A stretch of 64,000 nucleotides of DNA from Prochlorococcus marinus subsp. marinus str. CCMP1375 (GTDB lineage Bacteria > Cyanobacteriota > Cyanobacteriia > PCC-6307 > Cyanobiaceae), in the NCBI RefSeq assembly GCF_000007925.1, contig NC_005042.1, positions 868,001 to 932,000 on the forward strand. Reading direction: 5' to 3'. Under the pieces are notes generated by a model. It saw only the letters and a list, made by a program, of their open reading frames with translations, ran no database searches and had not been told where the DNA came from. Both the position numbers and the translations under genes were made by a program. Positions 22,081 through 40,746 of the stretch are shown here, in pieces (position 1 is the first letter of the stretch; the number at the start of each line of letters is the position of its first letter).

Positions 22081-23379
22081 ATGGTACATAAAAGAGCATT
22101 TACTAGAAAATGCTTAATAGAAAGTAAATCAATCTTAGGCCGTGACATTATAAGTAACAAGGATCATCATAAATATAAGGATATTACTAACCTAAAAACC
22201 TATACCATAGACGACCCCAATACTATAGAAATAGACGATGCTATCTCATTAGAAAAAAGAGGAGATAAATGTTTTCTATGGATACATATTGCTAATCCAG
22301 CAGAAACTATCAGTTTAAATAGCGCATTGGCTCAAGAAGCTATGATTAGGTCAAGTACTATTTATCTAGCAGAATCGATAAGTTATATGTTTCCTAAGGA
22401 ACTTATTCGGGAAAAAATAAGTTTAGTTCAAGGGAAAGAATCGCTTGCTATTAGTCTAAAATTAGAGTTAAGTGATAAAGGTGATATTAATAGTTTCTCA
22501 ATAGAAAGAACAAAGATTAAACCAGATTATAAGCTTAGTTATGAAGAGGCTAACGAAATTCTAGATTATCAACCTAAGGAAGAAACTGAATTGATTATAT
22601 TTTATAATCTTATAAACCAGCATTACAATAATAGAATTAAACAAGGAGCAATAATTATAGAAGAGTCTGAAGGCATAATATTTAAGAAGGATAACTACTA
22701 TCAACATAAAATAAGAAAAATGAGTCCATCAAGAAGACTTATTAGTGAGTCAATGATAATTTACGGAGAACTAATTGCAGAATATTGCTTTTCAAAGAAA
22801 ATAGTTATTTTTTATAGAAATCAATCTCCAGCTACATTAGTGGATATAAAAAAGCTTAAATTCTTTAATAATAATCATGTAAAGAATTATATTTTAAAAA
22901 GTAGTTTAGGGAAATCTAATATTGAAATAAAACCTAAAAAGCATTATAGCCTTGCTTTAAATAAATATTCTCAGGCTACCTCACCTTTAAGAAGGTATTG
23001 TGATTTTATAAATCAACACCAATTGTTATCATATTTCAATAATAAGAAGCAATTGTCCGAGGTTGAAATGCTTTCAATCCTAGATAAAGTTAAGTTATCT
23101 CAAACACAAAACATACAGTTAACAAGAGCAAATAAAAGAAATTCTATATTATCTTATTTAGAGCATACAAAGAAAAAAAAATGGAATGTGATCTTTATGA
23201 GATGGATGGTCAAAAAAGAAAAGCTAGCATTACTTTACTTTTCAGATATTTATCTTGACATAGTATGTTCTCTAAATGGTTATGATCAGGACTTACTTGG
23301 CTATGAGTTCATAATTCATTTAGACCAACTAGATTCTGGTCTAGATATAATTAAAGTAACTGCTATAAACTATAATTGA
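22081..23379 (+). CDS. rnb: RNase II-family exoribonuclease with intact catalytic site
   Basis: 3'-to-5' single-strand exoribonuclease of the RNB family. The catalytic acidic cluster is intact: TIDDPNTIEIDDAIS gives Asp44/45 and Asp52/53. The second RNB block, SQATSPLRRYCDF near residue 300, is also present. The 432-aa protein is shorter than classical RNase II; it lacks N-terminal cold-shock domains and has only a short, poorly recognisable C-terminal region where S1 would be. Contrast the degenerate paralogue at 37204-39510. Starts with ATG downstream of rpsR. Confidence 0.88.
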   Translation: MVHKRAFTRKCLIESKSILGRDIISNKDHHKYKDITNLKTYTIDDPNTIEIDDAISLEKRGDKCFLWIHIANPAETISLNSALAQEAMIRSSTIYLAESISYMFPKELIREKISLVQGKESLAISLKLELSDKGDINSFSIERTKIKPDYKLSYEEANEILDYQPKEETELIIFYNLINQHYNNRIKQGAIIIEESEGIIFKKDNYYQHKIRKMSPSRRLISESMIIYGELIAEYCFSKKIVIFYRNQSPATLVDIKKLKFFNNNHVKNYILKSSLGKSNIEIKPKKHYSLALNKYSQATSPLRRYCDFINQHQLLSYFNNKKQLSEVEMLSILDKVKLSQTQNIQLTRANKRNSILSYLEHTKKKKWNVIFMRWMVKKEKLALLYFSDIYLDIVCSLNGYDQDLLGYEFIIHLDQLDSGLDIIKVTAINYN

Positions 23380-36441: not shown

Positions 36442-36795
36442 ATGACTGCAAAGGATTTACTAAATATTACCAAGGAAAACTCAGAAAACGGTTTTTACCA
36501 AACGTTAGTAACCACATTTACAGCAGTATTTCTAGCTGAACTTGGAGACAAGACACAAATAGCTACATTCATGTTATCAGCTGAGACTGGACGACCATTT
36601 ATTGTATTTATAGCAGCGGCTACAGCTCTAATATTATCAAGTCTTATGGGAGTTGCAATAGGATCTGTATTGTCTAAAAGGATCAATCCAAGAACCCTAA
36701 ACACAGTTGCCGGATTTCTAATGATTACAATAAGCTTATTTATGCTATTTGAAATAATAGAAGGCAATAATATTCTTACTAATATACTAAAATGA
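36442..36795 (+). CDS. UPF0016/GDT1-family cation transporter, first half-size subunit
   Basis: A 117-aa membrane protein with three predicted helices and the signature ELGDKTQIAT at residues 33-42. The family (TMEM165/GDT1/Mnx) exchanges Mn2+ or Ca2+, and the cyanobacterial member exports Mn2+ to the thylakoid lumen or periplasm. Most homologues are one protein with two such repeats; here each repeat is a separate gene, so a heterodimer is inferred. It overlaps the next gene by 4 bp (ATGA), which indicates translational coupling. Confidence 0.85.
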   Translation: MTAKDLLNITKENSENGFYQTLVTTFTAVFLAELGDKTQIATFMLSAETGRPFIVFIAAATALILSSLMGVAIGSVLSKRINPRTLNTVAGFLMITISLFMLFEIIEGNNILTNILK

Positions 36796-37073
36796 TATCT
36801 GCAATCTTTATCTCTACCTTCTTGACTATATTCCTAGCGGAATTAGGAGATAAAACTCAAATAGCGACTTTGGCAATTAGTGGGACTAGCAAAAGACCAT
36901 TAGCTGTATTTATTGGCTCATCAAGCGCACTAGTTTTAGCAAGTTTTCTTGGAGTGGCTTTAGGAGGTTCAATATCGAACGTCATTCCTACTTATATATT
37001 GCAAATAACTGCTTCTATAGGGTTTTTCATAATAGGCCTAAGCCTTCTCATATCAACCAAAGAAACTACTTAA
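36792..37073 (+). CDS. UPF0016/GDT1-family cation transporter, second half-size subunit
   Basis: A 93-aa membrane protein with three hydrophobic helices and the same ELGDKTQIAT signature at residues 17-26. It is a clear paralogue of the preceding gene and corresponds to the second repeat of full-length Mnx/GDT1 proteins. The 4-bp overlap with the upstream subunit supports stoichiometric synthesis. In inverted-repeat transporters the two halves bind the cation together, so both are presumably needed. Confidence 0.85.
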   Translation: MISAIFISTFLTIFLAELGDKTQIATLAISGTSKRPLAVFIGSSSALVLASFLGVALGGSISNVIPTYILQITASIGFFIIGLSLLISTKETT

Positions 37074-37203: not shown

Positions 37204-39510
37204 ATGTTTACGGTAGCCAAAATACTAGAACTGCTACCCCAAGAAGGGAGTCTAGAAATTAAGACTCTTGAAAAGATGCTGAAATTATCTCGCAAGATAG
37301 AACGCACAAGACTTGAAATTGCCATAAAAGCTCTAGCAAAACTAGGAATAATAGAGCAAAAGAATGACCATCATATTCAAAAAGGAAACATTGAAAATAC
37401 AATTCCTGCGACAATCAGATGCAGCAGTAAAGGATATTGCTTTGCAGTTAGAGAAGATGGAGAAGAAGATATTTATATAAGAGAGAAATTCCTAAATCAT
37501 GCATGGCATGGCGATAAAGTATTAGTACGAATAAGCAGAGAAGGTATACGCAGAAGATCACCAGAAGGTGAAGTATTATGCATATTAGAGAGAACCAAAA
37601 CAAATATCTTAGGAACAATCAATGAAAATAACAATGAAATTATAGGAAAGCCATTAGATGAAAGGATTTTATCTTCTATAAATTTACCATTAGAAAATAG
37701 TAGATTTATTGATAAAGATGAAAAAATAAATATTGTAGATATAAAAATTAACAGATATCCTATTGGTCAATTACCAGCAACTGGAGAAATAGTTAGGAAA
37801 TTAAGTTTAAATAACGGCCCAGAAGGAGACTTGGAGATTATTAAAACAAAATACAACTTATTAGATAGTTCTGTAGCACCTAATGTAGCGTTAAAGAAAC
37901 CTTTGCAGAAGAACAGAAATAACCTAGAAAGTCAACCTTGCATACTTTTTAAGAGCTGGTCTTCTAAGAATTGCCCATTACTTCCAGCACTATATTCCGA
38001 GCCAAGTAATGGAGGCATGACATTGTGGATTCATATACCTACTATTGGTGAAAGATTAAATTACGGTAGCAAGTTAGACGAATGGATCAGAAATAGATCG
38101 AATTCAATTTGTTTTGGTGAAGAATGGCAATGTTTTTTAGGCGATAAGCTTAATAAAGAAGCTGGATTCGAAATTGGCAAATCAAACTCTGCAATAACAT
38201 TAGAACTATTTATAGATAAAAATGGAAAATGTCAATCCTGGGAATTTTATTTAAGTACTATAAAGCCAGTAGCTAAGGTCTCACAAAAGAATTTAGATGA
38301 TATTCTCAAGAGAAAGAAAAGATCACGTATTGTACCTGCTAGTTTAAAGTTATTAAAAGATTATATAAATAATATTGAGGACCTATTATATATCTCCAAA
38401 ATAATAAATGAGAATTTGATCAAGGCAGGATTAATTCAATTAGATTTACCTGTTCCTGTAATAGAAAATTTAGAAGATTTAGATAAAACTGTTCCAGGGG
38501 GAGAATTTAATGGATGGTCTGACACTTATAAAGACAAAGATCCACAATCTATTATCTCAGTCTTTACAAAGTATGCAAATATCATATTAAAAGATCATTT
38601 TATTTCTTATAACATTAGTTTTATAGCACTTAAATTTAAACAACCAGATAATATACAATTAAATGACGTAATCAAATCTGCATTAGTATTAGATACGAAA
38701 ATAAATGTTAATGAAGAAGGCATTATTAGTTTTAAAGATCTTATTCTCAGCCTTAAGGAATCTCCTAATAAAAGGTTAATAGAGAAAATAATTAGCAATA
38801 CTATTTTAGATAAATATTATTCAATACCAACTAGTAATTCAGATGATTTAGGTTTATCTAAAGAAGATTCAACTAATTTAATCAGTGCAGATATTGAGGC
38901 ACCATGGTCATCTCCTGGAATGAATTATGCTGATGTGATTAACCAATTCATTCTTTTAAAGCTTCTTAATGAAGGTAAATCATATAAAAGTAAAAGAAAA
39001 GGTAGCGACCAATCTCTTGGTTCAATTAATATTAACCAAGACAATAACTGGGAAATCTTTGATATAAATGCTAAGGAATACTTAGCTAAGGTTTGTAGCA
39101 AAACAAACCTTAGGACATTAAATACCAAGAAAAAACAAACTAAGTCATTTAGGAATGGATTGATTTCAATGATTCAATTAAGATCAGTAGAAAAGAGTAT
39201 AGGTAAAATAATACAAGGAACTATAACTGGCGTTCAGAGCTATGGTTTTTTTGTAGAGATAGATCCTTCAATGTCAGAAGGACTTGTTCATGTAAGTACA
39301 TTAGAAGATGACTGGTATGAATACAGGTCAAGGCAAAATCTATTAATAGGAAGGAAGAATAAGAAAACCTTCCAGATTGGAGATAAGGTTAATGTAAGTA
39401 TTGAAAAAGTTGATTTACTTCGCAACCAAATAGATTTGAATGTAAAAATTGAAGATGGCAATTCAGAAATAGAATCCTCTCAAACTGTTACTACCAATCA
39501 TACAAAGTAA
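37204..39510 (+). CDS. Degenerate RNase II/R-family protein with S1 domain
   Basis: A 768-aa protein with RNase R layout: N-terminal winged-helix-like region (1-60), OB/cold-shock-like segment (about 70-115), an RNB-like body and a C-terminal S1 domain at about 668-748 (GTITGVQSYGFFVEI, EGLVHVS). The catalytic acidic cluster expected before WIHIPT (275-280) is missing; the region at 248-270 reads KSWSSKNCPLLPALY. The TSPxRRYxDL motif is altered to SSPGMNYADVIN. It keeps RNA-binding parts but probably not nuclease activity. Starts with ATG; ubiX follows 10 bp downstream. Confidence 0.8.
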   Translation: MFTVAKILELLPQEGSLEIKTLEKMLKLSRKIERTRLEIAIKALAKLGIIEQKNDHHIQKGNIENTIPATIRCSSKGYCFAVREDGEEDIYIREKFLNHAWHGDKVLVRISREGIRRRSPEGEVLCILERTKTNILGTINENNNEIIGKPLDERILSSINLPLENSRFIDKDEKINIVDIKINRYPIGQLPATGEIVRKLSLNNGPEGDLEIIKTKYNLLDSSVAPNVALKKPLQKNRNNLESQPCILFKSWSSKNCPLLPALYSEPSNGGMTLWIHIPTIGERLNYGSKLDEWIRNRSNSICFGEEWQCFLGDKLNKEAGFEIGKSNSAITLELFIDKNGKCQSWEFYLSTIKPVAKVSQKNLDDILKRKKRSRIVPASLKLLKDYINNIEDLLYISKIINENLIKAGLIQLDLPVPVIENLEDLDKTVPGGEFNGWSDTYKDKDPQSIISVFTKYANIILKDHFISYNISFIALKFKQPDNIQLNDVIKSALVLDTKINVNEEGIISFKDLILSLKESPNKRLIEKIISNTILDKYYSIPTSNSDDLGLSKEDSTNLISADIEAPWSSPGMNYADVINQFILLKLLNEGKSYKSKRKGSDQSLGSININQDNNWEIFDINAKEYLAKVCSKTNLRTLNTKKKQTKSFRNGLISMIQLRSVEKSIGKIIQGTITGVQSYGFFVEIDPSMSEGLVHVSTLEDDWYEYRSRQNLLIGRKNKKTFQIGDKVNVSIEKVDLLRNQIDLNVKIEDGNSEIESSQTVTTNHTK

Positions 39511-39520
39511 ATAAAAGCAT

Positions 39521-40123
39521 ATGTCTTCAATAGTATTAGCAATTACAGGAGCCTCTGCTCAAATTCTAGCCGAGAGGTCTATAGATCTTCTGCTTAGGTG
39601 CAATCAGAAATTAGATGTAATTATTAGTAAGGGAGCATATGAGGTATGGAAGTCAGAGATGAATGTCAATATTCCAGCAGAAGGAGCCAAGCAAGCTACT
39701 TTTTGGAGAAATCGATTAAAAAACAATCAAGGGGAAATAATATGCCATAAATGGAATGATAACTCAGCAACAATAGCAAGTGGTAGTTTTAGAACTAAAG
39801 GCATGGTTATTGTTCCTTGCTCAATGGGAACAATAGGTAGAATAGCTTCAGGTAGTTCAATAAATTTAATAGAAAGGTGTGCAGATGTTCATTTAAAAGA
39901 AGGAAGGCCGTTAATTATTTCGCCTAGAGAAAGTCCATTCAACCTTATTCATCTCAGGAATATGACAACACTTTGTGAGGCAGGAGCTAAAATTATTCCT
40001 TGTATTCCTGCCTGGTATTCAAAACCTAAGGATTTAGAAGAAGTTATAGATTTTATGGTTGTCAGATTATACGATTTATTTGATTTAAATATGAAAGATA
40101 TCAACAGATGGAAAGGTAACTAA
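39521..40123 (+). CDS. ubiX: Flavin prenyltransferase UbiX
   Basis: Makes prenylated FMN, the cofactor of UbiD-type decarboxylases used in quinone synthesis. The N-terminal AITGASAQILAERSIDLLL is the FMN-binding block, VPCSMGTIGRIASG near residue 105 matches the family's central motif, and PLIISPRESPFNLIHLRNM near residues 128-148 is diagnostic. Length 200 aa is typical. It lies between the degenerate RNase R-like gene and the repeat-tailed membrane protein, separated from the latter by 2 bp. Confidence 0.92.
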   Translation: MSSIVLAITGASAQILAERSIDLLLRCNQKLDVIISKGAYEVWKSEMNVNIPAEGAKQATFWRNRLKNNQGEIICHKWNDNSATIASGSFRTKGMVIVPCSMGTIGRIASGSSINLIERCADVHLKEGRPLIISPRESPFNLIHLRNMTTLCEAGAKIIPCIPAWYSKPKDLEEVIDFMVVRLYDLFDLNMKDINRWKGN

Positions 40124-40125
40124 AA

Positions 40126-40746
40126 ATGAATTCCAATAAGAAACTATTTATTCTATTAGCTTTATCACCTTTTCTAATATCACTTTATATAGCAACCTTA
40201 AATTTTAATAAAACAACTAAGCTTAGAATTTTGATATGGGAAACATCAGAGCAAAATATGGCAACACTTTTAGCTTTAGGTTCAAGCCTAGGTTTCACAT
40301 TATCATCATTAAATATACTAATCTCTAGCAAACAATATATACCACTAAAAAGAAAAGTTACTAAAAAGTCAAGGCCTTATTTAGAAAATGATCAATATAA
40401 TCCAGAAGATCAATATAATCCAGAAGATCAATACAAATCAGATCGATATAGTCAAGATGATCGTTTTTCTATTGAAGAGCCTAACTATATAGAACGCGGA
40501 ATTAGAGACCCTCAACCAACAATTTCAGTCCCATACAGAATAATATCTAATAAGACCGATAGTTCATATCAGAATCAGGAAAATGAATATACTCAATATC
40601 ATCAGTCAAAGTATCAAGATCAGGAGAACGATTACCCTGGGAATGATCAGTCAAAATATTATAATAAGAATTTAGAGACAGAAAGCCAGGACCCCGTAAA
40701 AATTGCAAATGAAGATTGGAATTCTACTGAATACCAAAACTGGTAG
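40126..40746 (+). CDS. Two-helix membrane protein with Tyr/Gln/Asp-rich low-complexity tail
   Basis: A 206-aa protein. Two hydrophobic segments (about 6-24 and 45-64) are followed by a basic stretch (PLKRKVTKKSRP) and then a long disordered tail with repeated QYNPED, DQYK and QSKYQDQEN-like units. The tail is enriched in Tyr, Gln, Asn and acidic residues. The first two repeat units are exact 18-bp copies at DNA level. No family was recognised. The position, 2 bp after ubiX, suggests co-transcription with it. Confidence 0.7.
   Translation: MNSNKKLFILLALSPFLISLYIATLNFNKTTKLRILIWETSEQNMATLLALGSSLGFTLSSLNILISSKQYIPLKRKVTKKSRPYLENDQYNPEDQYNPEDQYKSDRYSQDDRFSIEEPNYIERGIRDPQPTISVPYRIISNKTDSSYQNQENEYTQYHQSKYQDQENDYPGNDQSKYYNKNLETESQDPVKIANEDWNSTEYQNW
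40390..40425 (+). repeat. Two tandem 18-bp repeats inside the low-complexity tail
   Basis: GATCAATATAATCCAGAA at 40390-40407 is repeated identically at 40408-40425, with a third diverged unit following. Each unit encodes DQYNPE in frame. It is an in-frame tandem duplication within the tail of the two-helix membrane protein, so copy number could vary between strains. Confidence 0.85.

Follow-up and report, generated by a model that had tools for sequence, protein, structure and literature searches.

The 768-aa protein encoded at positions 37204-39510 of the window (the whole 64,000-nucleotide stretch of the Prochlorococcus marinus subsp. marinus str. CCMP1375 genome analyzed here) is the Zam orthologue of this picocyanobacterium; it has lost all catalytic residues yet retains its fold. 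We consider it probable that this protein, with its RNase R-type fold devoid of catalysis, is a non-cutting regulator of RNA metabolism that acts through its CSD1 and S1 domains on RNA and/or RNase E and carries a redox switch formed by C73 and C79. The concept of Zam as a conserved, non-cutting RNB regulator is already published: Thomas et al. (2022; PMC9145284) described a cyanobacteria-wide RNB clade of redox-regulated pseudonucleases with a degenerate active site. New here are the indications that the picocyanobacterial branch has reshaped the dead site into a conserved pattern of its own and that the cysteines thought to be essential are not always both kept.

Identity of Zam and loss of its catalytic site

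The features of the zam locus and of the second RNB-family gene in the window are as follows.

37204-39510, plus strand: zam, encoding a 768-aa RNB-family pseudonuclease (Pfam domains, Zam clade, synteny)
37411-37578, plus strand: CSD1/OB_RNB domain, residues 70-125, with C73 and C79 (Pfam, cysteine positions, dN/dS of 0.019 in family pairs)
37420-37440, plus strand: CSSKGYC, residues 73-79, with the pair of Zam cysteines on either side of the RNA-contacting loop (sequence positions; PMC9145284)
37915-38970, plus strand: RNB domain, residues 238-589, catalytically degenerate (Pfam, 201.5 bits; catalytic columns)
37951-37986, plus strand: site of the lost Asp cluster, residues 250-261 (E. coli RNase II alignment)
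38908-38934, plus strand: SSPGMNYAD, residues 569-577, altered TSPxRRYxD motif (sequence alignment)
39199-39447, plus strand: S1 domain, residues 666-748 (Pfam, 53.6 bits; dN/dS of 0.038)
39521-40123, plus strand: ubiX-like flavoprotein gene, conserved neighbor of zam (Pfam Flavoprotein; synteny)
22081-23379, plus strand: rnb, encoding a 432-aa RNase II with an intact catalytic site and a probable S1-like C-terminal barrel, without the N-terminal wH/HTH region (alignment, Pfam, model)

Zam and Rnb are the only two RNB proteins encoded in the complete, 1,751,080-base source genome. The OB_RNB, CSD2, RNB and S1 domains of Zam are all found in a single chain, each above the Pfam cut-off. The translation and Pfam bear out the ORF, its length, the arrangement resembling RNase R and the S1 domain that an earlier, sequence-only reading of this DNA had described. 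The protein does not reach the cut-off of the NCBIfam RNase_R model (TIGR02063; 212.5 bits against 597.85). In a quick tree with long outgroup branches and open forks, built after removal of the catalytic columns, it groups with the Zam clade, apart from the cyanobacterial Rnb (SH-aLRT 93). The ORF can be identified as zam given this placement, the presence of C73 and C79, and the adjoining ubiX gene, a neighbor of zam at 36/36 family loci and at 52 of 56 loci from other cyanobacteria. Within the family, zam was found with an open frame in all 63 high-quality genomes.

When aligned to RNase II and RNase R of E. coli, the protein has K250, P258, L260 and P261 at the positions of D201, D207, D209 and D210, so that none of the four is acidic. 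The catalytic R500 is replaced by M573, inside SSPGMNYAD, and the two tyrosines, Y253 and Y313, by C303 and Q361, respectively. The loss of the catalytic aspartates and the alteration of the TSPxRRYxD motif that the same reading had pointed out are thus confirmed; the same loss is seen in 29 family relatives and is therefore neither a chance change nor a sequencing error. In a local sequence check, the stretch 199-211 contains at most 2 acidic residues in 29 picocyanobacterial Zams versus at least 4 in every Rnb. The AlphaFold model (pLDDT 86.8, pTM 0.86) is confident around the lost site, with block means of 93-97, and its best PDB matches in a Foldseek search (8cdu, 5xgu and 7did) are RNase R structures. 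Zam thus shares the fold and the domain order with the bacterial RNase R of E. coli, B. subtilis and M. genitalium but, unlike these enzymes, lacks all four metal-binding aspartates and the arginine of the RRY motif.

The paralogue Rnb

The paralogue encoded at 22081-23379 shares the RNB domain with Zam and belongs with the cyanobacterial Rnb (Synechocystis sll1290; fold of the D. radiodurans structure 2r7d). In contrast to Zam, the cyanobacterial Rnb keep the D-E/D-D-D and RRY residues, and have wH/HTH domains in place of the cold-shock domains, with neither present in the small-genome lineages. In the window protein, D44, E50, D52 and D53, both tyrosines and the RRY arginine are retained in the alignment, with the motif reading TSPLRRY; cyanobacterial Rnb usually have Glu where the second Asp would be (65/80). 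Judging by these residues, Rnb is likely to be the only active RNB exoribonuclease of this genome, consistent with the proposal of the sequence-only reading that the activity resides in the short RNase II, for which the four acidic positions and the Arg provide support. That reading had also credited the short protein with the catalytic cluster and no obvious S1 domain; the first part stands, and the second is an impression at the level of sequence. There is indeed no Pfam S1 match in Rnb. However, an S1-like end is probably present, as suggested by the confident five-stranded barrel at the C-terminal end (residues 367-429) of the structural model (pLDDT 94.9) and by the best PDB match, the RNase II family protein 2r7d of D. 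radiodurans.

The Rnb proteins of relatives with larger genomes are about 680-735 aa long, and full-length cyanobacterial Rnb contain N-terminal wH and HTH domains (these are clear in the protein of locus L145; in the picocyanobacterial Rnb tested they are weak or lacking). This region is missing from the window Rnb, directly upstream of which lies rpsR, and the N-terminal domains have been lost only in small-genome members of the family (the short forms are found at family loci L064-L092). Another genus also has shortened Rnb, of 466-502 aa, in three genomes (G153, G204 and G232), perhaps as the result of an independent shortening.

The coexistence, in the window genome, of a Zam without catalysis and an Rnb without its N-terminal region fits the division of labor envisaged in the sequence-only reading, with RNA binding in one protein and cleavage in the other; Zam would then bind the RNA in trans on behalf of the shortened enzyme. 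We give this arrangement a slim chance at best and reject it as an explanation. Zams from outside the family lack the complete site as well, even though the Rnb that accompanies them is full-length, which shows that the two losses are not coupled: the erosion of Zam is family-wide and the shortening of Rnb is local. Furthermore, the part missing from Rnb corresponds to wH/HTH rather than to a cold-shock domain, and the S1-like barrel is retained. The other suggestion made in that reading, namely that the large protein is a pseudoenzyme regulator, is supported and matches the published view of Zam (PMC9145284).

In several cyanobacterial genomes there is yet another RNB-family paralogue, whose DDDD site is intact (loci L131, L132, L160, L166 and L167).

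Graded erosion and probable remodeling of the RNB domain

The sample of 231 Zams comprises 93 picocyanobacterial (family) proteins and 138 from outside the picocyanobacteria, and all position counts rest on one MAFFT alignment, in which, for Zams with inserts near the old Asp cluster, D209 and D210 can be placed with more certainty than D201. The erosion of the catalytic site across this alignment is graded. The equivalent of D207 is acidic in only one Zam and gone in the other 230, so that this residue was probably lost early in the history of the clade. Three of the four carboxylates along with the Arg are kept in 43/138 non-picocyanobacterial Zams, e.g., TIDGPNAQVIDDAL in Nodosilinea. At the other extreme, 79 of the 93 picocyanobacterial Zams retain no acidic residue at the four positions and the remaining 14 retain one; unlike many other Zams, this branch has also lost R500, Y253 and Y313. 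The published statement that no Zam has a canonical catalytic site (PMC9145284) holds across all 231 proteins. The least-eroded Zams come out close to the base of the tree, a placement that is no more than suggestive, considering the quick tree, the long outgroup branches and the open forks.

Zams of the Leptolyngbya/Elainella/Nodosilinea type (loci L003-L006 and most of L176-L240) have 2-3 of the four catalytic carboxylates and mostly an RRY motif, and by these residues are candidates for residual nuclease activity. For the Zam studied here, the possibility that it still cuts RNA, slowly or by means of another metal site, appears very improbable. Many other Zams retain 2-3 of the four carboxylates, and Anabaena Alr1240, a Zam according to Thomas et al. 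(PMC9145284), has been reported to degrade unstructured RNA (reviewed in PMC10989914), in conflict with the claim that all Zams are dead; however, the window protein has lost all four carboxylates together with R500, Y253 and Y313, and purified Zam from PCC 7002 showed no nuclease activity (PMC9145284). The erosion series, from three of four carboxylates in the Leptolyngbya type to none in most picocyanobacteria, offers a ready test of that claim.

The selection pressure is distributed unevenly over the domains. Close pairs within the family have dN/dS values of 0.019 for CSD1, 0.038 for S1 and 0.138 for RNB, and in the other Zams the respective values are 0.010, 0.009 and 0.075. Accordingly, the sequence comparison indicates an RNB domain that, in the family, is relaxed but constrained (0.138 vs 0.075). 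The picocyanobacterial clade sits on a very long stem (2.1 changes per column) and RNB identity within it is low, as might be expected of a decaying pseudogene; with an open frame in 63/63 high-quality genomes and an overall dN/dS of 0.11, this explanation was rejected and its probability is practically negligible.

The picocyanobacterial Zams share W308, N580 and Q581 in 93/93 proteins, E283 and R284 in 92/93, and P258 in 91/93, whereas at W308, N580, E283, R284 and P258 the predominant residues in the other Zams are V/I, V/I, H/Y, Y and V, respectively. This pattern makes remodeling of the picocyanobacterial RNB pocket more likely than drift. One could go further and suppose that the dead domain has been turned into a conserved site of a new kind that binds a small ligand, a partner protein or, in a different mode, RNA; RNB would then be a working part of Zam and not a scaffold alone. 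The fixation or near fixation of W308, N580, E283, R284 and P258, the higher conservation of the stretch 238-270 compared to the whole RNB domain in the clade (49.0 vs 40.5%), and the RNB dN/dS of 0.138 are all in line with such repurposing. On the other hand, these residues, known here from sequence, may serve folding alone, and among the large domains of Zam it is RNB that shows the lowest conservation. On balance, we regard the repurposed pocket as a possible but rather unlikely development, one that would be compatible with the preferred reading of Zam as a non-cutting regulator.

Cysteines and the possible role of Zam

The window Zam resembles the published Zam of Synechocystis PCC 6803 (sll1910) and Synechococcus PCC 7002 in its CSD1-CSD2-RNB-S1 layout, the degenerate site and the conservation centered on CSD1 and S1, and the motif CSSKGYC places C73 and C79 at the same residue numbers. 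In the published work, the conservation of Zam is centered on the OB-fold domains, the CSD1 cysteines C73 and C79 are redox-active, and a redox-dependent function and an acetazolamide phenotype were reported for PCC 7002 and PCC 6803; deletion of zam and the C73S or C79S changes give shared phenotypes in PCC 7002 (PMC9145284). Our literature searches found nothing on zam with acetazolamide and Prochlorococcus, and no text on D207N mutants.

The reading of Zam as a regulator draws on the loss of all catalytic residues, the preserved fold, CSD1 and S1 domains under strong purifying selection, and the presence of the two Zam cysteines. Zam would bind RNA and/or RNase E through CSD1 and S1, this binding would tune RNA turnover, and a disulfide between C73 and C79 in the RNA-contacting loop would serve as the redox switch, following the model of PMC9145284. 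The observation that Alr1240 binds RNase E and raises its activity counts in favor of this scheme. Against it, Alr1240 was also reported to degrade unstructured RNA (PMC10989914), and purified Zam showed no RNA binding either, though the protein aggregates (PMC9145284). Zam, which is encoded in every high-quality family genome searched, has been proposed as a link between the redox state and RNA turnover.

Both cysteines are present in all 138 other Zams and in 84 of the 93 picocyanobacterial ones. The nine exceptions are natural Cys-to-Ser variants (loci L035, L036, L052, L261, L262, L309, L320, L321 and L322), five with C73S and four with C79S but none with both, and each change occurred at least three times on the tree; four of them (L035, L036, L261 and L262) come from the same genus as the window. 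By their sequences, these variants argue against a universal C73-C79 switch and offer a ready test of the published claim that both cysteines are needed. Together with the erosion series, they may also help settle the conflict over the reported RNase activity of Alr1240.

All the exceptions fall within a clade marked by another cysteine, C126, which is present in 93/93 picocyanobacterial Zams versus 0/138 other Zams and, unlike in other Zams, is fixed in this branch along with W308, N580, E283 and R284. That C126 stands in for the lost partner of C73 or C79 is a hypothesis only. Conceivable but rather unlikely is a rebuilding of Zam in marine picocyanobacteria, in which the dead RNB pocket would have become a new conserved binding site and the redox switch would have been rewired, with C126, gained as a third cysteine of CSD1, permitting the loss of C73 or C79. 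Under such a scenario, the natural variants with C73S or C79S would be functional, in contrast to the PCC 7002 proteins carrying these changes.

Outside cyanobacteria, Zam can be compared with yeast Ssd1 (7am1), a eukaryotic pseudonuclease of the RNase II family that also combines a dead RNB domain with conserved cold-shock domains (TM-score of about 0.6). Ssd1 is not known to have a redox cysteine pair. It is an RNA-binding regulator that binds mRNA (PMC8934651, PMC8097288). Unlike Zam, it is a descendant of Dis3L2 in the published phylogeny, has fixed loops that block its RNA path, and recognizes an mRNA motif that is known. Ssd1 is a good working analogue of Zam, with a separate origin according to that phylogeny.

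Two further observations concern the neighborhood of zam. Just downstream of ubiX, a 206-aa ORF (40126-40746) contains YNPEDQY-type repeats and has no Pfam match. Directly upstream of zam, two overlapping half-size genes of the GDT1 divalent cation/proton antiporter family are located at 36442-36795 and 36792-37073; a GDT1 match is found at the zam locus in 36/36 family loci versus 0/56 loci of other cyanobacteria.
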